Below are positions 5,973 to 26,187 of a stretch of DNA of 64,000 bases, piece by piece. The notes below the pieces were generated by a model that was given only the letters and a program-made list of their open reading frames with translations, had not been told where the DNA came from and searched no databases. The stretch spans positions 62,001 through 126,000 of the forward strand of contig DASYYH010000027.1 of NCBI GenBank assembly GCA_035934015.1, written 5' to 3'. The stretch is from Candidatus Acidiferrales bacterium (GTDB lineage: Bacteria; Acidobacteriota; Terriglobia; Acidiferrales; UBA7541). Position 1 is the stretch's first letter; every line of letters begins with the position of its first letter. Position numbers and translations under genes: made by a program.

Positions 5973-7369
5973 TGCCGGAACACGCCCATCTGCGTCGGTG
6001 CGCCGACCGCTTGATCCTCTTCGCCCACTGGCTTGAATTCCACGGAGTATCCGAACTGTTTGCCGATCCGAGACGCCCATTTCTGGAACTGCTCACGAGT
6101 CCACTCGAAGCGGTGGTCGCGGTGGCGGAACTGCCCAGCCGGAAGCGTCTCGAACTTCACGTTGTATTCCGAGTTTGGAGTGGTCAACACCACCGTCTGC
6201 GGGCGAGCAAACTCGAAGAGGACGCGCTCGAACGCAGCGAGCCGTGGCTCGTCGAGATGTTCGATGACCTCGACGACGGCGGCAGCGTCGAAGCCGGACA
6301 TTCGCTTGTCCCGGTACATGAGCGAACCCTGAATGAGTTTGATCCGTTCCTTCTGCTTCGGCGGCATCGTGTCTAGGTGCAGTCGGTCGGAGGCTACTTC
6401 GAGACTCCGGTAGGACACGTCCATTCCAACAATCTCCTCGAACTGCCTGTCCTTCAGCAGTTCGCGGATGAGCTTGCCTTCTCCACAGCCCAGATCAAGC
6501 ACACGTTTCGCATCGCTCGCCTTGAGTTCCGACGCTACCTGCTGGAGCCGAGCATCGTGGAGACGGAGCGGAGCCTCGACGGCTTGCTCCTGTTCCTCTT
6601 TCGTTTCCTGCTCAGCGTCTGGATCAGCGGATTCGTCTTCGGTGAGCCGCGCCAGAGCTTCCCGTGTCAGCGTTCGGAATCCGCGCAGGTAGCGGTTGAC
6701 GATTGCTTCGCGTTCCGGGTGGGACTGGAGCCATCCCTCGCCGTGCCGCAACAGTTTCTCGACCTCGTCCTTTCCAACCCAGTAGTGCTTGTCGGCGTCG
6801 AGCACCGGGATCAGGACGTAGAGATGCGTCAGCAGGTCTTGCAGCGTGACTTCCCTCGCGATCTCGACCGTGTAGTACGGACTCTCGCCCCACTCTGGAA
6901 ACTTCTCATCAAGCGGATGATGTTCGGCGCTCACAGAGTAGCCGAGCGGCTCGAACAGACGTCGCACGAACGCCTCACCGCCACGGCAAGGCATCGCGGC
7001 GATTCTTGCGCTGAGTGGCAAAGGCACAGTCACGAGTTCCGGGCGACCCTTGCTGTTCCCCGCCAGCGCGGAGCCAAAGACCCGTGCGATTGCGACGCTC
7101 ATAAACGAAGAAGCCACATAGGGGCGGTCGTTGACATACTGCTCAAGCATCCCGCCCTCACCGGACGGGCCGCGCCGCGTCCTGACAAGCCCCACCGGGT
7201 CAACGTCGAGTAGCAGTGCTGCTGTGCAGCGATCTGCTGATGCCTGCGGGTAGAACACGTGCGCTTTCCCGAAGGAAAGCTCGAACGTCTGCAAGCGACC
7301 CGGATTCTTGTGGAGCAGGTACCCCAAGTCGGTCGCCGGAGCCTTCGTGTTAGCGATTGTCAGGAGCAT
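5969..7369 (-). CDS. hen1: RNA 3'-terminal ribose 2'-O-methyltransferase Hen1
   Basis: The product has 466 residues with the bacterial Hen1 layout. An N-terminal ligase-activating domain (about 1-240, opening MLLTIANT, PATDLGYLLHKNP) is joined by an acidic Glu/Asp/Gln linker to a C-terminal methyltransferase with LDLGCGEG at 291-298. The metal ligands of the Hen1 family are seen as EVIEHL 367-372 (E367, E370, H371) and RHRDHRFEW 415-423. It methylates the ribose 2'-O at the 3' end of cut RNA before Pnkp ligates, which makes the repaired site resistant to re-cleavage. Its stop overlaps the pnkp start (ATGA). The ATG at 7369 matches the family start. A GTG at 7528 would overlap the stop of the upstream gene (GTGA) and add 53 residues. 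Confidence 0.95.
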   Translation of the reverse strand: MLLTIANTKAPATDLGYLLHKNPGRLQTFELSFGKAHVFYPQASADRCTAALLLDVDPVGLVRTRRGPSGEGGMLEQYVNDRPYVASSFMSVAIARVFGSALAGNSKGRPELVTVPLPLSARIAAMPCRGGEAFVRRLFEPLGYSVSAEHHPLDEKFPEWGESPYYTVEIAREVTLQDLLTHLYVLIPVLDADKHYWVGKDEVEKLLRHGEGWLQSHPEREAIVNRYLRGFRTLTREALARLTEDESADPDAEQETKEEQEQAVEAPLRLHDARLQQVASELKASDAKRVLDLGCGEGKLIRELLKDRQFEEIVGMDVSYRSLEVASDRLHLDTMPPKQKERIKLIQGSLMYRDKRMSGFDAAAVVEVIEHLDEPRLAAFERVLFEFARPQTVVLTTPNSEYNVKFETLPAGQFRHRDHRFEWTREQFQKWASRIGKQFGYSVEFKPVGEEDQAVGAPTQMGVFRQ

Positions 7370-7524
7370 AACTGAACAGCCATTATGCCGGAAGAAGGAT
7401 CGAATTACTCGCCGTCCCAACAGTTCGCCGAGTTCTCGCATCTCGCATCCGCCACCGATGAAGCATGCGCGGTCTGGCGAAGTAGCTACCTGCGGCTGTA
7501 TTTCCTTGTCGCCTCGTCCATCGC

Positions 7525-7833
7525 TCACTCCTCCTGCAAAGGCTTCGGCGATTCGTTCCGGTCGAGCCTTAGGATCAGGATGTCCTCGACGACCTCGAAA
7601 CCGCTGGGCGTCAGGCCCTTTCCCAGCGCCTCGCGGATCATCGCCAACTCGTCCGGCTCCAAGCCTTGGATGAAAATGTCCGTGCGCACTATCTCAGGTT
7701 TGCGAAGCAGGCTGCTCTTGTAGCCAGCGGGAGGGTTGGCTATCACCCACCGCTCCTGCATCTGGACAGTCCACGTATGCCAGACAGCCTTTACCTTCGG
7801 CGGCGCGTAGATCGGGCAGATAAGCTTTCTCAT
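7525..7833 (-). CDS. Small protein of unknown function upstream of hen1
   Basis: This 102-residue product belongs to no family I recognise. It opens MRKLICPIYAPPKVKAVWHTWTV, continues with WVIANPPAGYKSSLL, and ends in a beta-alpha-beta-like part (DILILRLDRNE). There is no signal peptide or membrane segment. Its ATG overlaps the stop of the upstream 320-residue gene (ATGA), and its stop TGA overlaps a GTG in the hen1 frame, so it belongs to the same coupled operon. Its position suggests an accessory part of the RNA-repair unit; that is inferred from context only. Confidence 0.75.
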   Translation of the reverse strand: MRKLICPIYAPPKVKAVWHTWTVQMQERWVIANPPAGYKSSLLRKPEIVRTDIFIQGLEPDELAMIREALGKGLTPSGFEVVEDILILRLDRNESPKPLQEE

Positions 7834-9877: not shown

Positions 9878-11050
9878 TCAATCCGCAGCGACCGCTTTCT
9901 TGCGGTGGTAGTCCACCGCGTTCGCCGCGTTCCGGGCCTTCTCGTCCTTCGTCTTCAGGGCTTGAGCATACAATTTCAAAACATCAAGGCTCTCATGCCC
10001 GATCCAAACGCGCAGGGTCAGCAAGTCCACATCCGGCTGGCGCAGCATGTTCGTCGCCCATGTGTCCCTGCAACGATGCAAGATCGCGCCCTCGACGCCA
10101 GCACGCTTGGCTACGCGCTGGATGATCCGCAGCAAGTGTCGGTTGACCTTACCGCATTTCGCCGGGAACACAAGCACATCCTTCGCGCCTCGCTTCGCCT
10201 TGAGTGCTGCGATCAGCGAATCCGATAGCGGGATGCGCCGCGTGCCAGCAGTCGTCTTGGGCTTCCAGCCGTATTCCAGCTTGGCGTGAATCCACACGGT
10301 TTTGGCAGCGTAGTCGATGTCGCCCCATTGCAGGTGCGCGGCTTCCATGTTCCTGCACCCGGAGCCTAGCATGAACCTGATGAAGAGAGCCTCGTCTTCG
10401 TCCGCCGCGCAAAGCATCGCCTCAACCTCTTCATCGGAGTACGGCGCAGGCTCGGTGTCTGGGAAGTCGGGCCAATCGTCTGATGTGAGCAGACCCCTGA
10501 CGGACAGCAGCGGGTTCTTCTTAAGCATCGTGGTTGCTGACATAAGGTCGCCGACGACAGTCCAAGGCATGTAGCCCTCCGAGTACAGCCAGTCCCGATA
10601 CGCCAACATATCGTGGCGATCCAAGTTCGCGACGTGCTCCTTCTTACGTTGTGTCCGGCAGAACTCAGCGAAGCGTCGAAGCTCCTGAGCCTTCACGCGG
10701 ACAGTCTTGGCGACGTGGTTGTTCTCGGCCCAAAGCAAGTCGATATACTTCTCGGCGGCGTCGGCAATCCCAACGCGCCCGTCAAGTGGCGGGATTACCT
10801 TCACCGGGACGCGCTTGAGAGACGGCGTGTTCAGGGAGGGATCAGAGAGCCGAAGCTCCTTCTCCAACGCCAGCTTTCTTGCGCCCGCGAAGTCCGTGCC
10901 TTTCGGGAGCGTTTCCCAGACGCGCTTCATGTTGTCCCCTGTGTAGCGGATGATGAACGACGTGCGGTCTTTCGGATAGATTCCCCGTGAATCGGTCTTG
11001 TGGTACTTCCCGCGTTCGTCGCGGGTGTAAAGCGAAACTTTGGTGTTCAC
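9878..11050 (-). CDS. int: Tyrosine recombinase (site-specific integrase)
   Basis: The product has 390 residues. The N-terminal arm and core-binding part (about 90-180) have the usual SAM-like helices (ADAAEKYIDLL, DMLAYRDWLYSEGY). The catalytic domain shows the expected residues: R233 in SGCRNMEAAHL, a Lys near 257-263, H325-x-x-R328 in LHRCRDTWATNML, G351-H352 and the nucleophile Y361 in LKLYAQ. It lies between the cargo and the 3' end of the tRNA-Lys gene, the usual position for an element that integrates into a tRNA gene. It should catalyse integration and excision of the element to its left. The other attachment site is not visible in the window. Confidence 0.93.
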   Translation of the reverse strand: MNTKVSLYTRDERGKYHKTDSRGIYPKDRTSFIIRYTGDNMKRVWETLPKGTDFAGARKLALEKELRLSDPSLNTPSLKRVPVKVIPPLDGRVGIADAAEKYIDLLWAENNHVAKTVRVKAQELRRFAEFCRTQRKKEHVANLDRHDMLAYRDWLYSEGYMPWTVVGDLMSATTMLKKNPLLSVRGLLTSDDWPDFPDTEPAPYSDEEVEAMLCAADEDEALFIRFMLGSGCRNMEAAHLQWGDIDYAAKTVWIHAKLEYGWKPKTTAGTRRIPLSDSLIAALKAKRGAKDVLVFPAKCGKVNRHLLRIIQRVAKRAGVEGAILHRCRDTWATNMLRQPDVDLLTLRVWIGHESLDVLKLYAQALKTKDEKARNAANAVDYHRKKAVAAD

Positions 11051-11176: not shown

Positions 11177-11251
11177 TGGTAGGGGCGGTGGGGATCGAAC
11201 CCACGACCTTCGGCTTAAAAGGCCGCTGCTCTACCACTGAGCTACGCCCCT
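11177..11251 (-). tRNA. tRNA-Lys (anticodon UUU), attachment target of the element
   Basis: On the minus strand the gene begins AGGGGCGTAGCTCAG and ends CGCCCCTACCA. The acceptor stem AGGGGCG/CGCCCCT pairs fully, the anticodon loop is CTTTTAA (anticodon TTT, Lys), the T arm is GTGGG TTCGATC CCCAC, and the CCA is encoded. The 3' end faces the integrase. Confidence 0.95.
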
Positions 11252-12715: not shown

Positions 12716-14140
12716 TTACTCCTTTGCCCACCAATGGCAAATGCCTTCCACGGCCAAGTCCGGAATTAGGATCTTTCGCGGAGCGCCAGAGGCAGCGAGC
12801 AAAGCCTCTGCTGCCAAATATCCGCTGCGCACAGCGCCCTCCATAGTCGCAGGCCAGCCAGTCTGCGTCCAATCCCCTGCGAGAAAAAAATTGTCGTTCT
12901 TTGTTTTCTGCTCCGGGCGAAAAGCATCGGAGCCCGGCTCGGGCGAAAATGTCGCGTTCACTTCCTTCACGACGGTCGCTTTTTGCAGTTTCGCGCTACG
13001 TGTCGCAGGCAGCGCCTCCTGCAGCTCCGTCACGCAAAGGTCGATGATTTCCTGGCGAGAGCGCGGGATCAAATCATACGAGGCGCTAATCACAAGCTGA
13101 AGATACTGGCCGGGTTCGCGCGACGGCGTGCTTGCTGATTTTTCGACAGGGCCATAAAGCATCGATTTATTGAAAACCCATTGAACGGTGTGGTCGAGGA
13201 GGGTAAGAAACGGCTTGTCCAGCACTTCGCGGTCGTACCAAAGATGCACGCCAGTGATGGGAGATGTGCGCAAATGGCTGAGCGCGGCGAATTCGGGCCG
13301 GCTCTTGATTTCTTCCGGAAGGATCTGGAGCAGGCCGTCATGCGGAACGGCCAAGATGCACGCATCGGCGCGCATCTCGCTGCCGTCGTCCATCGCAAGT
13401 GACTGAAATCTGCCCTGCCTGAAGCGGATGCCTCGCACGGTGGCGCGCGTTTTGACCTCGCCGCCACGGCGCTCGATCGCTTCGCGACAACCTGCGTAAA
13501 GCTCTCCCAGCGGCACTGAAGGTATGCCGAGCACGTACCCTTTGCGATTGGCGAGAAATGCCTTCCAGAAAACGTCGACGCCGTAGTGCGCATCCGTGCG
13601 TTCCAATTCTTCGTCGAGCGCGCTGACCAGCACAACACGCCAGAAGCGCGCAATCGCGTCCTCCGTCTGACCGTTGCGCCGCAGCCAATCGAGCATCGAA
13701 ACGCCATGAACATCGGCCGGACGCCCGCCGGAGCGCACAATCGCGAGCATGGCGCGGGCGATGGAGCGCTTGTCTCTGAAAGAAAGCGCGCCAAACCGCA
13801 AGAATGAAAAGCTGGTGTGAAACGGCGCGGGAAGCGGCGAGGAATAAATCGAACTGACGCTGCCGTTTCGGTCGGCAAAATACAGGCGGCTATAGTTCCG
13901 GATTTTCGATTCCGCTCCAACGCGGCGGTAAAAATCAGCGAGGTTCGTGCAGCAGCCGAGAGTCACGTGCTGGCAATTGTCAACATGGCTGCCATCGGGA
14001 AGGGCATAGGAAGTCGCACGCCCGCCCAGATAGGGGCGTTTTTCCACCAGATGAACGCGCAGGTCGGCGTCAGCGAGAGCTGTGGCCGCCGACAGTCCCG
14101 CCAGACCTCCGCCGACGATGATCACTGTTTCGCAGCGCAT
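12716..14140 (-). CDS. hpnE: Hydroxysqualene dehydroxylase HpnE
   Basis: The product is a 474-residue FAD-dependent amine-oxidase-fold protein. The N-terminal dinucleotide motif VIIVGGGLAGLSAA is followed by EKRPYLGGRATSY, and the C-terminal FAD motif is NFFLAGDWTQTGWPATMEGAVRSG. This is the phytoene-desaturase-like family of hopanoid clusters. HpnE reduces hydroxysqualene to squalene, the last of three steps (HpnD, HpnC, HpnE) that replace squalene synthase. The ATG at 14140 is preferred because GGGGAGAGAG precedes it; an in-frame TTG at 14152 is the alternative. It overlaps the end of hpnD by about 70 bases and is the last gene of the operon. Confidence 0.92.
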   Translation of the reverse strand: MRCETVIIVGGGLAGLSAATALADADLRVHLVEKRPYLGGRATSYALPDGSHVDNCQHVTLGCCTNLADFYRRVGAESKIRNYSRLYFADRNGSVSSIYSSPLPAPFHTSFSFLRFGALSFRDKRSIARAMLAIVRSGGRPADVHGVSMLDWLRRNGQTEDAIARFWRVVLVSALDEELERTDAHYGVDVFWKAFLANRKGYVLGIPSVPLGELYAGCREAIERRGGEVKTRATVRGIRFRQGRFQSLAMDDGSEMRADACILAVPHDGLLQILPEEIKSRPEFAALSHLRTSPITGVHLWYDREVLDKPFLTLLDHTVQWVFNKSMLYGPVEKSASTPSREPGQYLQLVISASYDLIPRSRQEIIDLCVTELQEALPATRSAKLQKATVVKEVNATFSPEPGSDAFRPEQKTKNDNFFLAGDWTQTGWPATMEGAVRSGYLAAEALLAASGAPRKILIPDLAVEGICHWWAKE

Positions 14141-15011
14141 CTCTCTCCCCAAGCCAACCCATCCGCGCCCGGATCAGAATCCATACTTTTTCCGGGGTCG
14201 AAAGCCGCGGGGGCGGCGGAGCGAGAACCGCAAAGTTCCGCCGCTCGATCTTTTCCAGAATTCCGGAATAAATCCGTGCCATGGCCCACAGTGCAGCGTG
14301 GCTATCTTCGCTCACCAATCCGAGCAACGGCCAGCCTTCGCGGTAAAATTGCCAGGCGCGGTCACTTTCGAATTGCACCAACGGCGCGATTGCCGCGCTT
14401 GCATTCGCATCACCTAGCTGCTGAGGGTCGCACTGGAAGCGAGCAAAGTCTTCGTTGGGCAGGTAAACACGCCCCATGGCATGGTCGCGCGGAAGGTCAC
14501 GCAAAATGTTCGTCAATTGAAATGCGATGCCGAGCTTTTCAGCAAGCTCCGGGGCGTGCGGGTCAGAAAAACCAAAAACGTAAAGGCAGCACAGGCCGAC
14601 AGTCCCTGCGACACGATAACAGTATTCGCGCAAAGCATCGAAGGTCTGATACGAGGAAATCGTCAGGTCCATCTCCGCGCCGGAAATCAAATCATGAAGA
14701 TAGAGCTGTGGAATCGCGTAGGCCGAAACCGCATGGCGGAGCGCGGGCCATACAGGATCGTCCTGGCTGCCGCCAGCCAATCCCTTATCCATTTCCGCGC
14801 GCCGCTCGCTCAGGCGCCGGCACTTGTCTTCGATGGTTCCCGGCTCGTCCGAGATATCGTCCACGCCGCGCATGAAGGCATACAGCGCGCATAGCGCATC
14901 GCGCTTCGCGGCCGGCAGCAGCATAAACCCGTAGTAAAAATTGCGCGCGGCTGCACGGGCGATTTTTCGACAATGATCGTAAGAGGCAGAAACAGCGACG
15001 TTATCAGGCAT
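14070..15011 (-). CDS. hpnD: Presqualene diphosphate synthase HpnD
   Basis: The product has 313 residues of the trans-isoprenyl diphosphate (squalene/phytoene synthase) fold. The first Asp-rich motif is MRGVDDISDE and the second is LTNILRDLPRD; NFYYGFMLLP and YCYRVAGTVGL are typical of the family. It condenses two farnesyl diphosphates to presqualene diphosphate. The ATG at 15011 overlaps the hpnC stop by 8 bases, and the open frame before it has no coding character. The C-terminal ~20 residues (NSDHRRRRSGGTVGGHSSR) lie in the long overlap with hpnE and look like read-through of sequence selected in the hpnE frame. Confidence 0.92.
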   Translation of the reverse strand: MPDNVAVSASYDHCRKIARAAARNFYYGFMLLPAAKRDALCALYAFMRGVDDISDEPGTIEDKCRRLSERRAEMDKGLAGGSQDDPVWPALRHAVSAYAIPQLYLHDLISGAEMDLTISSYQTFDALREYCYRVAGTVGLCCLYVFGFSDPHAPELAEKLGIAFQLTNILRDLPRDHAMGRVYLPNEDFARFQCDPQQLGDANASAAIAPLVQFESDRAWQFYREGWPLLGLVSEDSHAALWAMARIYSGILEKIERRNFAVLAPPPPRLSTPEKVWILIRARMGWLGERDALRNSDHRRRRSGGTVGGHSSR

Positions 15012-15984
15012 GCCGACCGGCAATCGAGGCGCTTTCGGTTTTTGAGCCGCCATCCTTGGGATGGCCTGACGACGAGCCAAACTTCGCGAGAAGCCGCGAG
15101 AGCATGGCGCGCCCGAGGAGCCGGGCCTGCACGCGGCGGTCAAGAGCAGGGCGATGATTCAGCGTGTCGTAACCCATGGATTCGATGGCATCGAGAACCG
15201 CACAGCCGCCGCGATTGAAGAGTTCGAGGTCCACGCGAAATTCCTTCGAGACACGCTCCGCCAAGGGCGCTCCGATTGCGAAAAGAGCACGCGTCCGTGC
15301 GATTAGATCCTTCATCAGCGCGATATAACGCGAGTCGAATCGCCTGGAAACGATATCATCTTGCGAGACGCCGTGGGACGCGGCAATCTCCAAGGGAATA
15401 TAGATGCGGCCTTTTTCAAGGTCGCGCCCGACGTCCTGCCAGAAATTAGCGAGCTGTAAAGCCGTGCACGTTGCGTCGGAAAGCGATTGGCGCTCAGCGT
15501 CACCATAGCCCATGAGGTAAAGGACGAGCCGGCCGACCGGATTCGCCGAGTAACGGCAATACTCGATGACGTCGTCCCATTTCGCATAGCGGTGAACGGC
15601 CTGATCCTGCCGGAAGGCGATGAGCAAATCACGAAACGGATCGATGGGAATGCGGCATTCGCGCGCGGTTTCGCCCACAGCAATCAAAACAGGGTGAGTC
15701 GCGGCGCCGCGATACGCTCGCTCAAGCTCTTCCTGCCAGCCATTCAGCAGTTCGACCGCACGGCGAGGATCGGGAACTTCGTCGCCCAAATCATCAGCCC
15801 AGCGGCAATAGGCGTAGACATTATAAAAATGCTGATGCAGACGCTCTGGCAGCAACCAAGAGACGACGCGAAAATTTTCGTAGTGATGCGTGGCAAGCCA
15901 GCGCGTATAGCGCTGCGCTTCGGACGGAGCGCAATTTTCGGGAGGCAAGTTTCGCGCGATTTCCAGTTCGTACTGTCCGAGCAT
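15004..15984 (-). CDS. hpnC: Hydroxysqualene synthase HpnC
   Basis: The product has 326 residues of the squalene/phytoene synthase fold, paralogous to the next gene. The Asp-rich motifs are CRWADDLGDE and LANFWQDVGRDLEKGR; HHYENFRVVSWLLP and YCRYSANPVGRLVLYLMGY are the HpnC-type signatures. HpnC converts presqualene diphosphate to hydroxysqualene. It overlaps hpnD by 8 bases and starts 17 bases after the stop of the upstream dehydrogenase gene, so it belongs to the same transcript. Confidence 0.92.
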   Translation of the reverse strand: MLGQYELEIARNLPPENCAPSEAQRYTRWLATHHYENFRVVSWLLPERLHQHFYNVYAYCRWADDLGDEVPDPRRAVELLNGWQEELERAYRGAATHPVLIAVGETARECRIPIDPFRDLLIAFRQDQAVHRYAKWDDVIEYCRYSANPVGRLVLYLMGYGDAERQSLSDATCTALQLANFWQDVGRDLEKGRIYIPLEIAASHGVSQDDIVSRRFDSRYIALMKDLIARTRALFAIGAPLAERVSKEFRVDLELFNRGGCAVLDAIESMGYDTLNHRPALDRRVQARLLGRAMLSRLLAKFGSSSGHPKDGGSKTESASIAGRHA

Positions 15985-16001: not shown

Positions 16002-17066
16002 TTAAGCCCAGGGATTGACCGCCGTCTTCAATTCACCGTTGCGATGCTTCATGTGTTCGAAAACGCGCGGCAATTCGGCCAACGGAATTTCGCCAGTGAC
16101 GAAATCATCGGCGCGAACTTCCCCGCGCGAGATCGTGTCGAGCGCTTCGCGAATGAATCGCGGCGTGTGATGGAACGTAGCCTTGATGGTGATTTCCGAG
16201 TAATGCAGGAGCGCGGGATCGAAATGCACCTGCGTTCCATGCGGGCAGCCGCCGAACAGGTTCACTCTCCCGCCTTTTCTCACCATCTGCATGGCCCATT
16301 GCCAGGTCATGGCCGAACCGACGGCTTCGACAACGGCATCCGCGCCGCGGCCGCCTTCCGTCAACTGACGCACCAACTGCACCGGGCTGTCGATTTCAGA
16401 AACGTCAAACGCGGCGTAGGCGCCCAGGCGCTCCGCGGCCTGGATCTGATTCTTGCGTTTGCCGAGGGCAATCACGCGAACATCGCGTTCTGAAAGAACG
16501 CGAATGAACTTCAGGCCAATCGGCCCACAGCCGACGATGACCGCCGTATCGCCCGCTTGAATATTTGTCTCGTGAATTCCGCGCAGCACGCAGGCGAGAG
16601 GTTCGACCATCGCGGCGTCCCGAAAACTGACATGGTCGGGAATCTCTAAGAGATTTTGGCGCACAATCCGGCCAGGAATCCGCACGTACTCCGCGTAAGC
16701 GCCGTTATTGAACAGCAGGTCTTCACACAAATTCGGCTGGCCCTTGCGGCAATAGAGACATGAGCCGCACGGCGCAGAATTGGAGGGCACAACGCGCATG
16801 CCATTGTGAATCGTGCCCGCCACTGCCGAACCGGTTTCCTGCACAATGCCGGCCAGCTCGTGGCCAAAAATTGCCGGCGGGTGAATCATGCGCGGATGCG
16901 AGCCCTGCTTCCAGACCTTGAGGTCCGTGCCGCACGTCAGAGCCACCTGCACACGCACCAAAATCTCATCTTCGCCGACCGCAGGAATGCCGACGCGCTC
17001 GACCTTCAAATCTTCACGGCCATAGAGGACCGCCGCTGTCATTACCCCGTTGGAATCCGTCTTCAT
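16002..17066 (-). CDS. Zinc-dependent medium-chain dehydrogenase in the hopanoid operon (second copy)
   Basis: The product is a 354-residue zinc-binding MDR alcohol dehydrogenase. The catalytic zinc site is LTCGTDLKVW and FGHELAG, the structural zinc is CGSCLYCRKGQPNLC, and the nucleotide-binding motif is VIVGCGPIGLKFIRVL. The closest described relatives by pattern are polyol (sorbitol), galactitol-phosphate and threonine dehydrogenases. Its ATG overlaps the stop of the first MDR gene (ATGA). The position between hpnG and hpnC implies work on a hopanoid or its ribosyl side chain, for example interconversion of the ribosylhopane aldehyde and alcohol, but this is inference. Confidence 0.85.
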   Translation of the reverse strand: MKTDSNGVMTAAVLYGREDLKVERVGIPAVGEDEILVRVQVALTCGTDLKVWKQGSHPRMIHPPAIFGHELAGIVQETGSAVAGTIHNGMRVVPSNSAPCGSCLYCRKGQPNLCEDLLFNNGAYAEYVRIPGRIVRQNLLEIPDHVSFRDAAMVEPLACVLRGIHETNIQAGDTAVIVGCGPIGLKFIRVLSERDVRVIALGKRKNQIQAAERLGAYAAFDVSEIDSPVQLVRQLTEGGRGADAVVEAVGSAMTWQWAMQMVRKGGRVNLFGGCPHGTQVHFDPALLHYSEITIKATFHHTPRFIREALDTISRGEVRADDFVTGEIPLAELPRVFEHMKHRNGELKTAVNPWA

Positions 17067-18169
17067 GAATGCACAATCACCACTTTCAAAGTATCTTCTT
17101 TAGGATGCGCCGCCAATTCCAGCGCTTCCGCAATGCGTTCGGTCGGGAACCGGTGAGAAACCAGTTGCGCCACAGGCATTCGCCGCTCGAACACTATCTC
17201 AGCATACTCCTGTTGCTCGGTAATTGATGCGCTATAACTTCCGAGAATTTCCTTCTCTTCAATCCCCACCGCCGCCGCCGGGAATTCGATGCGCAACACG
17301 GGATCATTATGGGCAAACAACATGACGCGGCCACCGGGCCGTGCCATGGCAAGCGCTTCGACGACAAGTTTCGGGTGCGGCGCCGCAAGCAAGACGACGT
17401 CAGCGCCTCTGCCTCGCGTGCGCTCGCGGACTTGCGTCTCTATACTATCTGATGCCGGATCGAAACTGGCCGTTGCGCCGAGCGCCAGGCTTGCAGCGCG
17501 CCGCGCCGGCAAAGGATCGGTTGTGACGATCTCCGCACCTTTCAGTTTACACAAGCCCGTCAAGAGCATGCCGATCGGCCCCTGGCCGATCACGACAGCG
17601 AATTCCCCGTCTGCAACGCGCGCTTTCCAGACGGCCTTGGCCGCTGTATTGACCGGCTCGATGAATGTCGCTTCTTCAAACGTGATATCTGCGGGAAGCG
17701 CTAACATGCCGCGCTCGACAATCCAGGGCATCGCGCGAACATACTGCCCGAATCCGCCGCCATTCGGCGTGAAGCCCGCGGTTAGGCCCACTTTCTTATA
17801 TTGCGAGCATTGCGAGAATAGTTTGCGCTCACAGTAAAAGCACTTTTCGCACGGGACATGATGAAAGCTGACCACGCGGTCGCCCGGCTTGAATTTGCGC
17901 ACGCCGCGGCCGACTTCGACGACCGTGCCCGCAAGTTCGTGTCCGAAGATTTGCGGAGGCTCCGCAAAACCGTGCGCGATTTTCTTAATATCGGTTCCGC
18001 AGATTCCGCATGCGGCGACACGAAACAAAACTTCTCCTTCGCCGATTTCAGGAATGGGAACTTCTTCGCAAACAACGCAGCCCTTGCCGCGATACACTCC
18101 AGCGAGCATTTTGCCGCTGGCGCGATTCTCGCGCGAATTACTTCCTATGTGCGCCGTCGTGGAACTCAT
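17063..18169 (-). CDS. Zinc-dependent medium-chain dehydrogenase in the hopanoid operon (first copy)
   Basis: The product has 368 residues of the same MDR family as its neighbour. The catalytic site is ACGICGTDIKK and FGHELAGTVVEVGRG, the structural zinc is CEKCFYCERKLFSQC, and the Rossmann motif is VVIGQGPIGMLLTGL. It has a ~20-residue polar N-terminal extension, so an internal ATG (MLAGVYRGKG) may be the real start. The ATG at 18169 overlaps the hpnG stop (ATGA). The two MDR proteins differ enough to have different substrates or to form a heteromer. An action on the hopanoid side chain is a guess from position. Confidence 0.85.
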   Translation of the reverse strand: MSSTTAHIGSNSRENRASGKMLAGVYRGKGCVVCEEVPIPEIGEGEVLFRVAACGICGTDIKKIAHGFAEPPQIFGHELAGTVVEVGRGVRKFKPGDRVVSFHHVPCEKCFYCERKLFSQCSQYKKVGLTAGFTPNGGGFGQYVRAMPWIVERGMLALPADITFEEATFIEPVNTAAKAVWKARVADGEFAVVIGQGPIGMLLTGLCKLKGAEIVTTDPLPARRAASLALGATASFDPASDSIETQVRERTRGRGADVVLLAAPHPKLVVEALAMARPGGRVMLFAHNDPVLRIEFPAAAVGIEEKEILGSYSASITEQQEYAEIVFERRMPVAQLVSHRFPTERIAEALELAAHPKEDTLKVVIVHS

Positions 18170-18930
18170 TTGTGATACGCCTCGGCCATTTCCATTTGCG
18201 AAGCGGGATGCTTGGCGATGTCTGCCACGTAAGCATCCAAGACTTGCGCCAGTTTTGTTGCTGCCAACCGGCTATTGCGGCCAACGCGGACAAGGCCCGG
18301 CAATTTGTGCGGCGCGCGCGCAAGAGCCCGCGCTAGCTTCGATCGATCCAACCCTCCGTGTTCATTCAAGAAAGATTGAAAATCCATCGGCAGATTTTCG
18401 TCAGCCGAGTCGCTGATCGCGCGAATGGCAATCGCGGGAATACCGCTTGCAGAAGCCTCCGCGAGAATCGCGAAGCTCTCCATGTCAACCGCTTCCGCCA
18501 TGCTGCTCAGCCGCGCCTTCCCTTCCGCCGTGAGAATCATGCTGGCTGCCGAGAGCAAGTGCTCCACGGCGATGAGTCCATGCCTCTGCGCGGCGACAAA
18601 GAGATCCGTGTTGCAATCCATCTTTCTTCCAGTTTCCAAATCCTTCGCACTGCGCGCGGCAAAGACACCTCCGATCCCAAGCGCAGGCCGCAAGGCGCCT
18701 GCAAGGCCCGATGAAATGCAGACGTCCGGCTTCCATTTCAAGGCTTCGGCAGCAACTCTTTTCGCGTGGATGGGGCCAACGCCGGTCAGCACAACGCGCG
18801 CCACCGCGTTACCAACCGCGCACTCATAAACCGGGAAAGCCACTCCCGCAACGCTGTCAAAAGAGCGCACGCCTCGCCACGGAGCGAATTCCACATCAAG
18901 AGCGAATGTGATCAGGATTTTCAAGGCCAT
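18166..18930 (-). CDS. hpnG: Hopanoid-associated phosphorylase/nucleosidase HpnG
   Basis: The product has 254 residues of the purine-nucleoside phosphorylase/MTA nucleosidase fold. It opens KILITFALDVEFAPWRGVRSF, contains ARVVLTGVGPIHAKRVAAEAL and CISSGLAGALRPALGIGG, then AEAVDMESFAILAEASASGIPAIAIRAISDSADE, the substrate-binding part of the family. HpnG removes adenine from adenosylhopane to give a ribosylhopane (or its phosphate). It lies three bases after hpnA and overlaps the next MDR gene (ATGA). Confidence 0.9.
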   Translation of the reverse strand: MALKILITFALDVEFAPWRGVRSFDSVAGVAFPVYECAVGNAVARVVLTGVGPIHAKRVAAEALKWKPDVCISSGLAGALRPALGIGGVFAARSAKDLETGRKMDCNTDLFVAAQRHGLIAVEHLLSAASMILTAEGKARLSSMAEAVDMESFAILAEASASGIPAIAIRAISDSADENLPMDFQSFLNEHGGLDRSKLARALARAPHKLPGLVRVGRNSRLAATKLAQVLDAYVADIAKHPASQMEMAEAYHK

Positions 18931-18933
18931 TGT

Positions 18934-19959
18934 TCAAGCGGCAGAAGCCCGCGCTTCCTGCTTACGTCTTGGGAGATTTACATATCCGTGCTCAGCATAC
19001 CATCCTACGGCGCGCTCGAGCGCACCTTCGACAGAACCAGGCTGGTAGCCTAATTCCTGGCGCGCCTTCGAGTCGCTGACAAACATCGTATGCCGCGCGA
19101 TACGAACGCCTTCCAGCGGAATGCGCGGCTCTCGACCGGCGACGCGCGAAAAGGCCGCGTCAGCATAGGCGGCGAAAAGCGCAATCGAGTGAGAAATTTT
19201 TCGTGTCGGCGCGGCGACGTTTGTGATCTTCGCAAGCGCGTCGAGCAATTCCTTAAGCGTCATATTGCGTCCGCCGAGCAAATAGCGTTCGCCAATTTTC
19301 CCGAGCCGTGCCGCTTGAAGATGGCCTTCGGCGACGTCTTCGACGGGCGCGAAATTCAAGCCTGTGTCTATATAAGCCGGCATCTTGCCGCGCAGAAAAT
19401 CCAAAATGATCTTACCGGTCGGCGTGGGCTTCCAGTCGCCGGGACCGACGGGCGTCGTCGGATTCACGATCACCACTGGCAAACCCTCGTGCGCGGCGCG
19501 CAGCGCCTCTTGCTCCGCGAGCAGCTTCGATTTCTTGTAATTTCCGATCATCTCATCGACCGTCGTCCGATTCGTTTCGTCCGGCACAGCATTGCCCCGA
19601 GGCACGGCAATCGTGGCAACGGTACTCGTATGAATGAAACGCTGGACTCGCGCACGTAAAGCCGCGGCAAGAAGATTTTTCGTTCCTGTTACGTTGCTTT
19701 CGTAAATTTCCTGAGGATTGCGGGCCCAGAGGCGGTAATCCGCAGCGACATGGTAGACCTGTTCAATCCCGGCGAGGGCGCGAACGAGCGAAGATTCGTC
19801 GCGCAAGTCGCCTTCGACCCATTCGACCTCAACCCCGGCCAGCGACTGACGCTGGCTCCCTCTGCGCGCGAGCGCCCGAACAGTTTCACCGGAAGCAGCC
19901 AGGCGACGGGCAACGTGGGAACCCACGAACCCGGTCGCGCCGGTAACCAACGTCCTCAT
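18934..19959 (-). CDS. hpnA: Hopanoid-associated sugar epimerase HpnA
   Basis: The product is a 341-residue extended short-chain dehydrogenase. The NAD(P)-binding motif is LVTGATGFVGSHVARRL at the N-terminus, with DLRDESSL next. Its active-site region reads HTSTVATIAVP followed by the Tyr-x3-Lys pair in GNYKKSKLLAEQEAL. It matches the HpnA family found in hopanoid clusters, whose precise reaction is not settled (a sugar or polyol side chain is the usual proposal). The start ATG overlaps the hpnH stop (ATGA). Confidence 0.9.
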   Translation of the reverse strand: MRTLVTGATGFVGSHVARRLAASGETVRALARRGSQRQSLAGVEVEWVEGDLRDESSLVRALAGIEQVYHVAADYRLWARNPQEIYESNVTGTKNLLAAALRARVQRFIHTSTVATIAVPRGNAVPDETNRTTVDEMIGNYKKSKLLAEQEALRAAHEGLPVVIVNPTTPVGPGDWKPTPTGKIILDFLRGKMPAYIDTGLNFAPVEDVAEGHLQAARLGKIGERYLLGGRNMTLKELLDALAKITNVAAPTRKISHSIALFAAYADAAFSRVAGREPRIPLEGVRIARHTMFVSDSKARQELGYQPGSVEGALERAVGWYAEHGYVNLPRRKQEARASAA

Positions 19960-21107
19960 AGAATACGGAAGGCCTCTTCCTTTTCGCGAGCTTGCGCGCC
20001 TGCGGCAGGGTCATAAGTTGCAGTTAAATTCGCCGTGTGGCCGTTTCCGTTCGTCTTCGGGACGCGATTACCATGGCCATTTGCACCTTTGCGGCCTCCG
20101 AGGCGTCCGGAAACCTGCCACTGAAGCATTTTCCAGGTATCGCCGAATTTGTGATTTCCGCCGAGCACAGCGGAAGCCTCGTATCCCGATTGCACCATGC
20201 AGTTTTCGCAGCGAGGGTCGCGGCCGTAGCCGTATTTTTCCCACGGTGTGTTGTTGATCAGGTCACCGAAGGTTTTGTGGTGCTCGTCCGTCATCAAATA
20301 GCACGGCCCTTTCCATCCGCGCGGGTTGTAGGTCGGATTGCCCCACGCCGTGCACATCAAATCGCGTTCGCCACGGAGGAATTCCATATAAATCGGCGAC
20401 GTAATGACGTTGAACTGCTCCAGAAGCTTGCTCGCGCGCTGGAATTTTTCGTTCACGTCCTGGCGCGACATGAAAATGTCCTTTGTCTGCACCGATGCGT
20501 ACGAATACGCAGGCGAGAGCATGTTGCCATCCACTCCCAGCGTGCGCAGAAAGGCGAAGAGTTCAGCAACTTCCTCGATGTCCGTCTCTTTGTAAATCGT
20601 CGTATTCGAGCAAACAAGGAAGCCGGCGGCTTTGGCCGCTTTGATTCCCTCAATAGCTTGGCGGAAGACGCCGTCACGTTCCACGCAAAGATCGTGCGTC
20701 TTCTCCAAGCCATCCAGGTGCACATTGAAGAAGAAGCGGGACGTCGGCTTGAATTCGCTCAGCCGTTTTTGGATGAACATGCCGTTGGTGCAAAGATAGA
20801 TGTTCTTTTTGCGCGCCAAAATTTCCTTCACCAGGCGGCCAATCTCCGGATAAATCAAAGGCTCCCCGCCACAAATGGAAACGATGGGCGCGCCGCAGTC
20901 CTCAAGCGCGGCAATGCACTGCTCCACAGTCAGCATTTCATTGATCGTGCCTTTATATTCGCGGATGCGACCACAGCCGGTGCACGTCAGATTGCAAGCG
21001 TGCAGCGGCTCGAGCATCATGACCAGCGGAAATTTCTTCTCTCCGCGAATGGCCTTCCCGGCCAGATATTTCGTCAGGTTCGCCGTCAAACTTAGCGGAA
21101 ACCTCAT
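19956..21107 (-). CDS. hpnH: Radical SAM adenosylhopane synthase HpnH
   Basis: The product has 383 residues. The radical SAM iron-sulfur site is C38-x3-C42-x2-C45 (CNLTCTGC), followed by the glycine-rich SICGGEPLIYPEI. The C-terminal part has further Cys (GPCYLMTDEHHKTF and RDPRCENCMVQSGYEASAV), typical of HpnH. It joins the 5'-deoxyadenosyl radical to diploptene, giving adenosylhopane, the first step of side-chain extension. The last ~50 residues are an Asn/Gly/His-rich tail likely without catalytic function. Its start overlaps the shc stop (ATGA). Confidence 0.94.
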   Translation of the reverse strand: MRFPLSLTANLTKYLAGKAIRGEKKFPLVMMLEPLHACNLTCTGCGRIREYKGTINEMLTVEQCIAALEDCGAPIVSICGGEPLIYPEIGRLVKEILARKKNIYLCTNGMFIQKRLSEFKPTSRFFFNVHLDGLEKTHDLCVERDGVFRQAIEGIKAAKAAGFLVCSNTTIYKETDIEEVAELFAFLRTLGVDGNMLSPAYSYASVQTKDIFMSRQDVNEKFQRASKLLEQFNVITSPIYMEFLRGERDLMCTAWGNPTYNPRGWKGPCYLMTDEHHKTFGDLINNTPWEKYGYGRDPRCENCMVQSGYEASAVLGGNHKFGDTWKMLQWQVSGRLGGRKGANGHGNRVPKTNGNGHTANLTATYDPAAGAQAREKEEAFRIL

Positions 21108-23143
21108 CGTTTGCCCCCATGTCCATTGCGATAAATAAATTCACTGGCGTTAAATTGAAACGGTTTCAGACTATTTTGTGGGCCTCTGCGCATGTTGCGA
21201 TATCGCGCCAGCGCATAGAGCGGGAAAGAATTCCGGTACAGATGGTATTTCAAGTAAAACACGCAAGGGAAGCCTGTGCCAGTAAACGCATCTTCATCCC
21301 AGGAACCATCTTCATTCTGATGTTCGATGAGCCATTCTACGGCCCGCTGCACGGCAGGATCATCCGGAGACACAACAGCGAGCAAGCCGATTAGACCCCA
21401 CGCCGTTTGCGACGCAGTGCTCGGTCCCTGTCCCTTCAGCGATGGATCGACGTAGGAAAGCGGCGTTTCGCCAAATCCTCCATCCGCATTCTGCACCTTT
21501 TTCAGCCAATCAACGGCGCGATGCCCTTCTACGCTTTCTCCCAATCCTGCAACTTCGAGAGCGCGCAGTACGCCGCTCGTTCCGTAGACATAATTGGAAC
21601 CCCAGCGTCCATACCAAGCGCCTTCCGGCGTTTGCTCACGTTGCAGGTACTGAAAGGCCCTGCGAATCGCCGGGTGAGAAGCGGACCAGCCGTATTTCGC
21701 CAGGCATTCGATCGAGCGAGCCGCAACATCGGCGGTCGAAGGATCGATCATGGCGTTGTGATCCGCGAACGGAATCTGTGTCAGCAGGACGTGGTCGTTG
21801 TCGCGGTCAAACGCACCCCATCCTCCATCGCGATTCTGCATGCTCAGCAGCCATGTCAATCCGCGGCGTGCCGCCTGTTCAAAGCGCACAGGCTCGGAGT
21901 GTTCCACCGGCTGCAGTGCCATCAACACAAACGCCGTGTCGTCAACATCCGGGTAAAAGTCATTGCGAAACTCGAAAGCCCAGCCGCCCGGCGGCGCGTC
22001 TTTGTTCTTCACTTGCCAGTCGCCAGGTCCCAAAATCTGATGATCGATCAGCCATTGCGAAGCGGTTTGCAGCGCTGGATGCGCCGAGTCGACACCCGCC
22101 TCTTCGAGCGACACCATGGCGATCGCAGTGTCCCACACCGGCGAAATGCACGGCTGCATGCGTAGTGTGTCGTTCTCCTCGATTTCGAATGTGGAAACCC
22201 AGCCCATTTCGCGCATGATCAATGGATCTTCCGGGGGATAGCCCAGCGTGAGCATGGCATAAATCGAATGCGCCATAGCGGGGAAAATTGTCGCAAGACC
22301 TTCGGTGCGCTCGATATGTTGGAACATCCATCGCTTGGCCTCTTCGACAGCGCGCCGGCGAAATGGTTTCCACGGCAGCGCTTCGTGAATCTTCAGTATG
22401 CGGTCGATAGCGAGAAATAGATTGCGCCAGGAGATGATTTTCCGGCTCCATGCGAGCGCCTTGTGCTTGTTCTTGGGATCCAGGAAGAGCTCGTCCACAC
22501 TCGGCATCTTCCCGGCTTTCCAATCCGGCTTCAGCGCATAAATAATCGTCAGCGGCACGACAATCGCACGGGTCCACGAAGACATGTCGTACAAATTCAC
22601 GAAAAACCAATTCGGCAGCAGCAAAAGCTCAGGTGGAATTGCCGGGACCATATCCCAGCCAATCGCGCCGGTCATGGCGAGATAAAAGCGGACATAAGAA
22701 TTGGTGGACTCCAGCCCGCCCAATTCGTGGATGGCCTTTCGCGCGCGCGAGAGGTGAGGGGAATCGGCAGAGTCGCCCGCGAGTCGCAGTGCAAAGTAGG
22801 CTTTCACGCTCGTATTCAGCTCAGCGGGCCCATCGGGGTAGATATTCCAGCCGCCATTTGAAAGCTGCTTTTTGCGAAGGTAATTGGCCAGCATCCGGAC
22901 TTTGTCGCTCTTGATGTCTCTGCGAAGGTAGTTCAGCAGAATATGGTCGGACTCTAGAGTCGTGTCAGCTTCCAGTTCGCCCCACCAGTACCCATCCGCC
23001 GTCTGCAGCGACAACAAGTGCTGCACGCTCCGCTCAACAGCGTCCGCAACTCGCGAATCGTGTTTACCTTCGTGGACACGAACGCGCTTCACCGCCGTCG
23101 CAGTTTGTATTTGAGCTTCCGGCATTTGCATGCCTTCGGACAT
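21104..23143 (-). CDS. shc: Squalene-hopene cyclase
   Basis: The product has 679 residues of the class II triterpene cyclase family. The catalytic DVDDTA is at 399-404, which matches the DxDDTA protonation motif. QW repeats are seen across the protein (for example NGGWNIYPDG, DGGWGAFDRDND, DGGFGET, DGSWDE), and the C-terminal GTGFPCVFYLKYHLYRNSFPL is the family signature. It cyclises squalene to hopene/hopanol, a membrane-rigidifying lipid, and acts at the cytoplasmic membrane. The ATG at 23143 follows GGAAGG at good spacing; a TTG at 23185 would add 14 poorly conserved residues. It is the first gene of the operon. Confidence 0.96.
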   Translation of the reverse strand: MSEGMQMPEAQIQTATAVKRVRVHEGKHDSRVADAVERSVQHLLSLQTADGYWWGELEADTTLESDHILLNYLRRDIKSDKVRMLANYLRKKQLSNGGWNIYPDGPAELNTSVKAYFALRLAGDSADSPHLSRARKAIHELGGLESTNSYVRFYLAMTGAIGWDMVPAIPPELLLLPNWFFVNLYDMSSWTRAIVVPLTIIYALKPDWKAGKMPSVDELFLDPKNKHKALAWSRKIISWRNLFLAIDRILKIHEALPWKPFRRRAVEEAKRWMFQHIERTEGLATIFPAMAHSIYAMLTLGYPPEDPLIMREMGWVSTFEIEENDTLRMQPCISPVWDTAIAMVSLEEAGVDSAHPALQTASQWLIDHQILGPGDWQVKNKDAPPGGWAFEFRNDFYPDVDDTAFVLMALQPVEHSEPVRFEQAARRGLTWLLSMQNRDGGWGAFDRDNDHVLLTQIPFADHNAMIDPSTADVAARSIECLAKYGWSASHPAIRRAFQYLQREQTPEGAWYGRWGSNYVYGTSGVLRALEVAGLGESVEGHRAVDWLKKVQNADGGFGETPLSYVDPSLKGQGPSTASQTAWGLIGLLAVVSPDDPAVQRAVEWLIEHQNEDGSWDEDAFTGTGFPCVFYLKYHLYRNSFPLYALARYRNMRRGPQNSLKPFQFNASEFIYRNGHGGKR

Positions 23144-23491
23144 CGTTTCAACCTTCCCGACCAGAAATCCCACGCCAAGCCGCAATCCCTATTTGGATTG
23201 CGCGCCCGCGCTTCAGTTTGCGGGCACGAAAACACAGCAACAACTCCACGGGCTACGCGCCGCCCCGCGCAATTAAGTGATTATCGCCGCAAGGCTCTTC
23301 CGCGGCGGACACGCTTCCGGATGTAAGATGCCGCCAAGTCCCAGGACGTATCCCGCACAGCCTTGCAATAAAGTGCTATTCAAGAATGAGCTACAAATGC
23401 AAGAACTTACACACACGCTCCCCTCAAATTATCACTGGTGCATAGTACCCCGGTCAACACAAAAAGACATCCATGATTCGGTAGACGAATC
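23144..23491. promoter_or_regulatory. Leader and promoter region of the hopanoid operon
   Basis: About 348 bases between the start of shc and the stop of the upstream P-loop gene, with no gene that I can support. The promoter for the nine-gene hopanoid operon should lie here. A CGCCGC/GCGGCG inverted repeat (23285-23290 and 23302-23307) is the only clear structure, of unknown meaning. Confidence 0.45.
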
Positions 23492-24104: not shown

Positions 24105-25124
24105 CTATTTCGCGTCACGCTTCTCTTCCAGTCTGCGAACTCGTTCTGCCAATTCGGGCAACCGCGCAAATTGCGCATATTGCTTTTTGAATTCGCCGAG
24201 TGGACGCGCCGGCGTGCCCCAAACCATTTGACCTTCACGGACCGTTTTGCCATTCAGGATGCCCGACTGCCCGCCCAAAATCGCTCCATCTTCGACTTTG
24301 CAGTGTTCGCCGAGTCCTGCTTGCCCGCCGATCAAAACATGCCGGCCAATGTCGCAGCTTCCCGAAATTCCCGTTTGTGCCGCGATAACCGTATGCTCTC
24401 CGACGCGCACGTTGTGCGCGATATGCACCAGATTATCCACCTTCACTCCTCGCTCGATGCGCGTCGTACCCAGCGACCCGCGTGCGATCGTCGAATTGCT
24501 CCCGATTTCAACATCATTGTCAATCTCGACGCCGCCGAGCTGCGGAAATTTCCAATTTTTTCCTTCGCCGTAGACGTATCCGAAACCGTCTCCACCGATG
24601 ACTGCTCCTGCATGAACAATCACGCGGTTCGCCAATTTCGCGCCAGCGTAGAGCGTAACGCGCGGATACAACCGGCATGACTCTCCAATCTTCGCGCCAC
24701 GTCCCACAAAGCAAAATGCTCCGATCTCCGTTCCTGCTCCAACAACCACACCCTCTTCGATCACAACGTACGGGCCGATATGCGCGCTCGCCGAGACCGT
24801 TGCCGAACCATCGATCAGAGCGGTGGGATGAACTCTTGAGGCGATTGGCTGCTGTTCCAGCATCCATGCAGCCGCTTTGGCAAACGCCAGCTTCGGCTCG
24901 CGCACGACGATGAGCGTTTTCCCGGGGAGCTTCATCCCTTCGCGCACCAGCGCACATCGGGCGGCCGAGGACTCGCAACGGGGCAGGTGCTTCGCGGCGT
25001 CGACATAGATTAAATCCTCCGCGCTCGCATCCTCCGGGCGGGCCAACCCGGAAATTACCACCCTCGCATCGCCCTCCACGGTCGCTTGCAAATGATCCGC
25101 AAGTTCCTGTGCGGTTCGCTTCAT
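24105..25124 (-). CDS. lpxD: UDP-3-O-acylglucosamine N-acyltransferase LpxD
   Basis: The product has 339 residues. An N-terminal uridine-binding domain (DLIYVDAAKHLP) is followed by a long left-handed beta-helix of hexapeptide repeats (about 100-290: IDGSATVSASAHIGPYVVIEEGVVVG, IGGDGFGYV, NLVHIAHNVRVGEHTVIA). The HIAHNV segment carries the catalytic His of the family. A C-terminal helical tail (LPELAERVRRLEEK) matches LpxD trimers. It adds the N-linked acyl chain in lipid A synthesis. The ATG at 25124 has GAGGAGAAAAATC in front. It confirms a Gram-negative outer membrane. Confidence 0.95.
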   Translation of the reverse strand: MKRTAQELADHLQATVEGDARVVISGLARPEDASAEDLIYVDAAKHLPRCESSAARCALVREGMKLPGKTLIVVREPKLAFAKAAAWMLEQQPIASRVHPTALIDGSATVSASAHIGPYVVIEEGVVVGAGTEIGAFCFVGRGAKIGESCRLYPRVTLYAGAKLANRVIVHAGAVIGGDGFGYVYGEGKNWKFPQLGGVEIDNDVEIGSNSTIARGSLGTTRIERGVKVDNLVHIAHNVRVGEHTVIAAQTGISGSCDIGRHVLIGGQAGLGEHCKVEDGAILGGQSGILNGKTVREGQMVWGTPARPLGEFKKQYAQFARLPELAERVRRLEEKRDAK

Positions 25125-25196
25125 GATTTTTCTCCTCATCAAACTCTTTCACGCATTACGAAAATCATGCTTTATTGCTCGGTCTTTCGCAAAACT

Positions 25197-26102
25197 CTAG
25201 CGGGCATACAGCGGCGGCTCTCCCGGCGGACGATTTTTCCATCTCTTGTGCACCCAGAGCCATTGATCGGGATGGGCGCGAATGTAGTTCTCGATGGCCT
25301 GATTGAACCGAAGCGTGTTCTCGCGAATATCCGCATCTTCATCGTTCGATTGCACGAGCTTCACGGCCGGTTCAAAGCGCAGAGAATATTTCCGTTCAGA
25401 ATCGTCCCAGGAGATAAACCCGGGAACGACAGCGGCGCCTGTCCGCGACGCGACGCGCGCAAGTCCCGTTGTAGTTGCAGCGGGAACGCCAAAAAAGTCG
25501 ACGAAAATCCCTTCATCGAGGGAGGTGTTTTGATCCGCGAGGATTCCGATCGTGCCGCCGCTGTGGAGAACCCGCAGGATGACGCGTGCGGAATTATTTT
25601 TCTCGATCGGCTGATTGCCGGAAAGGCACCGATAGCGATTGATGAGTGCGTTGACGCGCGAATTATCGATCGCACGCGCAAGGAACGATAGAGGATTCCC
25701 ATAAACTGCCTGCGCGAAGGGCGCGATTTCCCACGCGCTCATATGGCCGGTGAGAAAAATCACTCCCTTGCCCAGCCGCCGCGCGGCTTCAAAATTCTCG
25801 AAGCCATCGATCACGACGAGCCTCTCGATATTCTCGCGCGACCAATCCGGAAAATGCGCGAACTCCGCCGCCATCCAGCCGAGATGACGCGCCATGCTTC
25901 GAATCGTTTGCCGGCGTTGCGCGTCGGACCAGTCTGGAAATGCGAGACGAAGATTTACAAGCGCAGCGTGCCGCAGCGGCGGCCGGCACAGCAAAAGAAA
26001 CCGGGCGATCTGCGCAGCAACAGCGCGTGCCAACGGCCGCGGAAGGAGCCCCAAAAATTTTAGAATCGTCCAGGCTGCGGCATATTCGCACCATTCACGC
26101 AT
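25197..26102 (-). CDS. Lipid A biosynthesis acyltransferase (LpxL/HtrB-like)
   Basis: The product has 301 residues of the lysophospholipid/lauroyl acyltransferase family. The catalytic HX4D/E appears as FLTGHMSAWEI, with Glu as the acid. GTIGILADQNTSLDEGIFVDFFG and a C-terminal YIRAHPDQWLWVHKRWKNRPP are the standard LpxL signatures. A short hydrophobic N-terminal helix should anchor it to the inner membrane. It adds a secondary acyl chain to lipid A precursor or a similar envelope lipid. The ATG at 26102 is preferred over a GTG at 26120. It lies 72 bases upstream of lpxD in the same direction. Confidence 0.88.
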   Translation of the reverse strand: MREWCEYAAAWTILKFLGLLPRPLARAVAAQIARFLLLCRPPLRHAALVNLRLAFPDWSDAQRRQTIRSMARHLGWMAAEFAHFPDWSRENIERLVVIDGFENFEAARRLGKGVIFLTGHMSAWEIAPFAQAVYGNPLSFLARAIDNSRVNALINRYRCLSGNQPIEKNNSARVILRVLHSGGTIGILADQNTSLDEGIFVDFFGVPAATTTGLARVASRTGAAVVPGFISWDDSERKYSLRFEPAVKLVQSNDEDADIRENTLRFNQAIENYIRAHPDQWLWVHKRWKNRPPGEPPLYAR

Positions 26103-26187
26103 CGCGCGCCATTCTGTCACAGACGTTTTCCGCGAACCAGCGCTGCTTCTTCAGAGTTGACCGACTCGTCTGATACACTCAGCCGCG

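Follow-up and report, generated by a model that had tools for sequence, protein, structure and literature searches.

Genes of the hopanoid operon and their two dehydrogenases

The window, that is, the whole stretch of 64,000 nucleotides that was analysed, contains one minus-strand hopanoid operon, which runs from 23185 down to 12716 in the order shc-hpnH-hpnA-hpnG-MDR1-MDR2-hpnC-hpnD-hpnE. Hopanoids are lipids of bacterial membranes that resemble sterols. Five products score above the cut-offs of their NCBIfam models: the squalene-hopene cyclase encoded by shc (hpnF; 21104..23185; TIGR01507, 742 bits), the radical SAM adenosylhopane synthase HpnH (19956..21107; TIGR03470, 428 bits), the hopanoid-associated SDR or "sugar epimerase" HpnA (18934..19959; TIGR03466, 453 bits), HpnC (15004..15984; TIGR03464, 325 bits) and HpnE (12716..14152; TIGR03467, 471 bits). 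HpnG (18166..18930; TIGR03468, 108 bits against a cut-off of 187) and HpnD (14070..15143; TIGR03465, 255 bits against a cut-off of 279) fall below theirs, but these models are still their best matches. HpnG is a divergent nucleosidase/phosphorylase that should release adenine from adenosylhopane; its cut-off of 187 bits is reached in none of the 52 HpnH-positive acidobacterial genomes. The hpnD coordinates are those of the longest reading frame, which overlaps hpnC, and the true start probably lies downstream.

Between hpnG and hpnC lie two genes for zinc MDR proteins of the polyol-dehydrogenase type, MDR1 ('a'-type, ug1; 17063..18169, 368 aa) and MDR2 ('b'-type, ug2; 16002..17066, 354 aa). 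An earlier note on this DNA had placed two zinc MDR dehydrogenases directly after hpnG, coupled to it by ATGA overlaps, and this description holds. Both reading frames are intact, and 4-nt ATGA start/stop overlaps join hpnG to MDR1 (18166-18169) and MDR1 to MDR2 (17063-17066). The shc/hpnH and hpnH/hpnA junctions are overlaps of the same kind, so that the ATGA coupling reflects a single operon and not a special link between hpnG and the MDR genes. The placement is more than chance, since two of the six ADH_N proteins in the whole genome are MDR1 and MDR2 and the arrangement recurs in many genomes. A scan for promoters and terminators returned sites no more numerous than in shuffled sequences.

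Directly upstream of the operon are lpxD-like and lipid A acyltransferase genes (window 24105-26120, minus strand). Elsewhere on the minus strand of the window, a gene for a bacterial Pnkp (kinase-phosphatase-ligase) adjoins Hen1, the two forming an RNA-repair pair (3417-6080 and 5969-7528), and a tyrosine recombinase gene (9878-11050) adjoins a tRNA-Lys(TTT) gene (11177-11251), the usual mark of an integrated element.

Both MDR1 and MDR2 match Pfam ADH_N and ADH_zinc_N well above the gathering score. The catalytic zinc ligands (C57, H77, E78 and E171 in MDR1; C45, H69, E70 and E155 in MDR2) and the four cysteines of the structural zinc lobe (C107/110/113/121 in MDR1; C100/103/106/114 in MDR2) are invariant in the family alignments; a divergent NC10 b-type protein is missing the catalytic cysteine. 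The end of beta-2 carries Asp or Glu in every MDR1 examined, and Lys, Arg or His without an acid in 14 of 15 in-cluster MDR2 proteins, the motif being Gly-Lys-Arg in the MDR2 of the window. Judged from these residues, the acidic position suggests that MDR1 is of the NAD(H) type and the Gly-Lys-Arg motif that MDR2 is of the NADP(H) type.

Confident AlphaFold models of the two proteins (pLDDT 88.7 for MDR1 and 88.0 for MDR2) match zinc polyol and alcohol dehydrogenases. The closest solved relatives include ketose reductase, xylitol dehydrogenase and sorbitol dehydrogenase, in keeping with the earlier note, which had said that relatives act on sugars and polyols. These nearest solved enzymes are generic, and the predicted folds place MDR1 and MDR2 at the family level only. 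None of the named equivalogs (Tdh, IolM, galactitol-1-P and idonate dehydrogenases) was reached, the best NCBIfam score being 162 bits against a cut-off of 450.

Distribution of MDR1 and MDR2 within the Acidobacteriota

Of 198 genomes sampled from the phylum, 52 have an HpnH that scores above the cut-off. MDR1 orthologues are sharply set apart from other proteins (at least 328 bits, the next match scoring 202) and are present in 30 of these 52 genomes and in one HpnH-negative genome, which has hpnA-MDR1-MDR2-hpnD-shc. In 30 of the 31 MDR1-positive genomes the gene adjoins hpnA or hpnG within the hopanoid cluster; in the remaining one, G061, both MDR genes lie together outside the cluster. The same in-cluster position was seen on most of the named acidobacterial contigs with a long enough HpnH flank. 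The clusters of 13 genomes, all of family f2, are split, and in each of the 13 MDR1 is found with hpnA-hpnG and MDR2 with hpnC/hpnD; these clusters may be descendants of one split. Where the cluster is not split, MDR2 is usually the next gene after MDR1.

MDR2-type genes were counted at a threshold of 180 bits to MDR2, which was set after inspection of the data; at this threshold they occur in 45 of 52 HpnH-positive and in 5 of 107 HpnH-negative genomes. Counted by family, which takes out shared ancestry only in part, the figures are 9 of 14 and 4 of 53 (Fisher p = 2.4e-5). At the low end of the range (families f47 and f66) the b-type identity is based on the tree position of one member and on an adjacent a-type match.

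MDR1 is absent from 22 of the 52 HpnH-positive genomes, and seven of these have no MDR2-type gene either (G007, G028, G054, G065, G083, G109 and G189). In G007 no hpnG was found, and in G028, which has neither MDR type, hpnH is interrupted by an in-frame TAA (L105:4942-5946). Three genomes inferred to be Chloracidobacterium have no MDR1 orthologue, and their MDR2-type homologue is only 41% identical and lies away from the cluster; Chloracidobacterium thus probably lacks MDR1. Where MDR1 is absent, no substitute reductase adjoining hpnG was seen among the neighbours whose translations were read by eye. These hpnG neighbours appear to be IPP isomerase, mevalonate-pathway, dxs, squalene/phytoene synthase-like, outer-membrane and HpnI-like glycosyltransferase genes. 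Several clusters without the pair (L108, L111, L116, L117 and similar ones) are followed, again by eye, by genes for a type 2 IPP isomerase, HMG-CoA reductase and other mevalonate-pathway enzymes.

The clusters of family f29 (L121, L122, L142 and L303) keep hpnA-MDR1-MDR2 with no hpnG between hpnA and MDR1, which rules out the pair as a strict partner of HpnG. The HpnG-model matches in f29 were rejected as hpnG; they are located elsewhere, and the one inspected, which is on the same contig, more closely resembles MTA/SAH nucleosidase or futalosine hydrolase.

The earlier note had held that its proposal would fall if most relatives producing bacteriohopanetetrol (BHT) carried the pair outside the cluster. 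In the bacterium's own class this is not the case, since of 22 HpnH-positive genomes 21 have MDR1 within the hopanoid cluster, but it does hold for other acidobacterial families and for nearly all sampled HpnH-positive genomes of other phyla.

An old a/b pair and its occurrence in other phyla

A tree of 64 MDR proteins resolves two facing clades, a (MDR1-type) and b (MDR2-type). Adjacent a-b pairs are also present outside hopanoid clusters, in families f47 and f32, in G121, on a Methylomirabilis contig and on a contig labelled Planctomycetota, where the pair is followed by a gene for a HAD-type phosphatase (L248:7760-10813). Standalone pairs are common in HpnH-negative genomes of G121's order. 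Since such pairs occur in hopanoid-free genomes (L139, L288-L291 and L302), the family must have other substrates. MDR1 and MDR2 represent an old pair, one member of the putative NAD type and the other of the putative NADP type. Two Verrucomicrobiota genomes have both types, unlinked; on their contigs L304 and L305 the MDR1 orthologue adjoins what appears by eye to be an RluD-type pseudouridine synthase gene. Among hopanoid-free genomes, G121 has the closest b-type homologue (51%), which lies divergently beside mtnB-mtnD-mtnC (L138:8240-11412). A link to methionine salvage, which would suit a 5-substituted ribose substrate, was rejected because different genes flank the 70% orthologues of this homologue in three related genomes.

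Outside the phylum, 40 HpnH-positive genomes were sampled, 38 of which have a hopene cyclase above the cut-off. An MDR1-like gene is present in four of the 40 and a b-type gene in six, and most of the 38 have neither. Another enzyme must therefore carry out the reduction there. Beyond the two clusters described below, the HpnH flanks in these phyla revealed no further MDR gene except for one weak, oppositely oriented match (L190). C35 hopanoids do not in general require the MDR pair, and its absence from HpnH-positive acidobacteria and from other phyla rules it out as the universal BHT enzyme.

Two contigs, L218 (labelled Deltaproteobacteria) and L221 (labelled Proteobacteria), carry hpnH-ispA-b-shc-dxr-hpnC-hpnD-hpnE-hpnA, in which ispA and dxr were named by eye. 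No a-type orthologue was found in either genome. The b-type proteins of these two contigs fall together with the ones from G121 and f32 (support 98/100). A single clade of all in-cluster b-types, a grouping chosen once the first tree had been inspected, was rejected (p-AU 0.0008). Under that tree, b-type genes entered hopanoid operons at least twice.

Possible roles of MDR1 and MDR2 and their relation to known systems

A role of MDR1 and MDR2 in hopanoid biosynthesis is well supported by their conserved clustering, the phylum-wide co-occurrence with HpnH and the separate recruitment of a b-type gene. The enzyme that converts ribosylhopane to BHT was still "not yet established" as of late 2025 (PMC12583986), as the earlier note had stated in proposing the pair as candidate side-chain reductases. 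That proposal gains from the position of MDR1 beside hpnA-hpnG and from the MDR2-type gene tracking side-chain capacity across the phylum; as a general answer it does not stand.

We tentatively regard the pair as soluble zinc dehydrogenases whose target is the ribose-derived end of the C35 side chain, with MDR2 as the likeliest reductase of ribosylhopane to BHT. By the published steps, HpnH couples the 5'-deoxyadenosyl group to diploptene, and HpnG takes off adenine to give ribosylhopane, the sugar of which can open to an aldehyde. MDR2, as the NADPH-type member, would most likely reduce the C-35 aldehyde to the primary alcohol of BHT, the catalytic zinc polarising the carbonyl and NADPH supplying the hydride. 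A Methylobacterium organophilum extract that reduces ribosylhopane reportedly used NADPH. MDR1, as the NAD-type member, would most likely catalyse a reversible oxidation of one hydroxyl (C-34 or C-35) at the same polyol end, alone or in sequence with MDR2. We infer the substrate of the reductase, the direction of the reaction and which of the two proteins reduces. Several points argue against this assignment. One aldehyde reduction calls for a single enzyme; where the cluster is split, hpnG has MDR1 as its companion instead of the NADP-type MDR2; Chloracidobacterium thermophilum, probably without MDR1, makes BHT (PMC5462960); f29 keeps the pair without hpnG; many HpnH-positive genomes are without MDR1 or without both genes; and the standalone pairs point to other substrates of the family.

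Another possibility, which we consider real though doubtful, is that the pair acts after BHT. One protein would use NAD+ to oxidise a secondary hydroxyl, at C-34 or C-32, and its partner would use NADPH to reduce a ketone or aldehyde; the products would be stereoisomers or a 32-oxo intermediate, and ribosylhopane would be reduced by another enzyme. Opposite coenzyme signatures suit an oxidise-then-reduce pair better than one reduction, the nearest MDR relatives oxidise secondary hydroxyls of polyols, other lineages need no pair for BHT, and a BHT 32-oxo intermediate has been proposed on the way to pentols with no gene known for it (PMC12583986). However, tetrafunctionalised BHPs are the only kind present in nearly every acidobacterial strain studied (PMC5462960), so that pentol synthesis is not the general role, and the single b-type genes of L218 and L221 have no a-type partner. 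No stereochemical data bearing on an action after BHT were found. The reductase might also be HpnA, the SDR encoded next to hpnG, with the MDR pair as an accessory. This was proposed in PMC5462960, and hpnA is present in clusters both with and without MDR genes, but we consider it unlikely, given the evidence, cited in PMC5462960, that Burkholderia cenocepacia can make BHT without hpnA and that the gene is missing from Rhodopseudomonas.

The split clusters, in which MDR2 is always beside hpnC/hpnD, together with the linking of ug2 to hpnCDE in PMC5462960 and the location of the L218 and L221 b-type gene between ispA and shc, could mean that MDR2 belongs to the squalene branch and that only MDR1 works on the side chain. 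This we hold to be very improbable: squalene can be made by HpnC, HpnD and HpnE alone (cited in PMC5462960), the split clusters all come from one family and may count as one event, and MDR2 is the usual immediate neighbour of MDR1 where the cluster is whole. There is just as slight a chance that the pair consists of general sugar-alcohol or housekeeping dehydrogenases that ride in the operon and have no hopanoid role. The standalone pairs in hopanoid-free genomes would fit such genes, but the long in-cluster conservation over several families, the co-occurrence with HpnH and the second, separate recruitment do not. A broader reading, which also seems rather unlikely to us, is that the pair is an NAD/NADP-split module for 5-substituted 5-deoxypentoses generally, that hopanoid operons acquired it on two or more occasions, and that in Acidobacteriota it serves both the reduction of ribosylhopane and the stereochemistry of the side chain. 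If it were true, this biomarker step would be carried out by unrelated enzymes in different phyla.

BHT and the compounds derived from it find wide use as bacterial biomarkers. With MDR2 as the favoured ribosylhopane reductase and MDR1 as its partner, the question of the reductase becomes testable with two small soluble candidates, each with a predicted coenzyme and a defined clade. From the absence of the pair in many HpnH-positive lineages, more than one evolutionary origin of the step is to be expected.

Both genes had been flagged as unknowns in Acidobacteria by Sinninghe Damsté et al. in 2017 (PMC5462960), which the earlier note had missed. In that study, ug1 follows hpnA-hpnG, and ug2, a Zn-binding alcohol dehydrogenase of about 350 aa, precedes hpnC. 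These positions match MDR1 and MDR2, the identity of ug1 with MDR1 being deduced from position. PMC5462960 gave no function for ug1 and ug2, treated them as two unrelated unknowns, tied ug2 to squalene synthesis (hpnCDE), and did not describe paralogue pairing, coenzyme signatures or occurrence outside clusters. What is added here is the pair structure, the predicted coenzyme split, the phylum-wide co-occurrence, the separate recruitment and the limits of the distribution. A literature search, whose reach did not extend to the primary ribosylhopane papers, found no MDR protein assigned to the conversion of ribosylhopane to BHT. The reaction proposed for the pair is that of the Methylobacterium organophilum extract, which, according to the passages citing it, reduces ribosylhopane (Bodlenner et al. 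2015, cited in PMC12583986 and PMC5358736) by an enzyme that, in the corresponding passage of PMC12583986, is not established.

MDR1 and MDR2 have the fold, catalytic zinc, structural zinc and Rossmann domain in common with the zinc polyol MDRs, such as sorbitol/xylitol dehydrogenase, the NADP(H) ketose reductase 1e3j, L-threonine dehydrogenase and the scyllo-inosose dehydrogenase IolM. They differ from these enzymes in forming clades of their own, with about 25-32% identity to the best-matching solved structures and scores far below the equivalog cut-offs.
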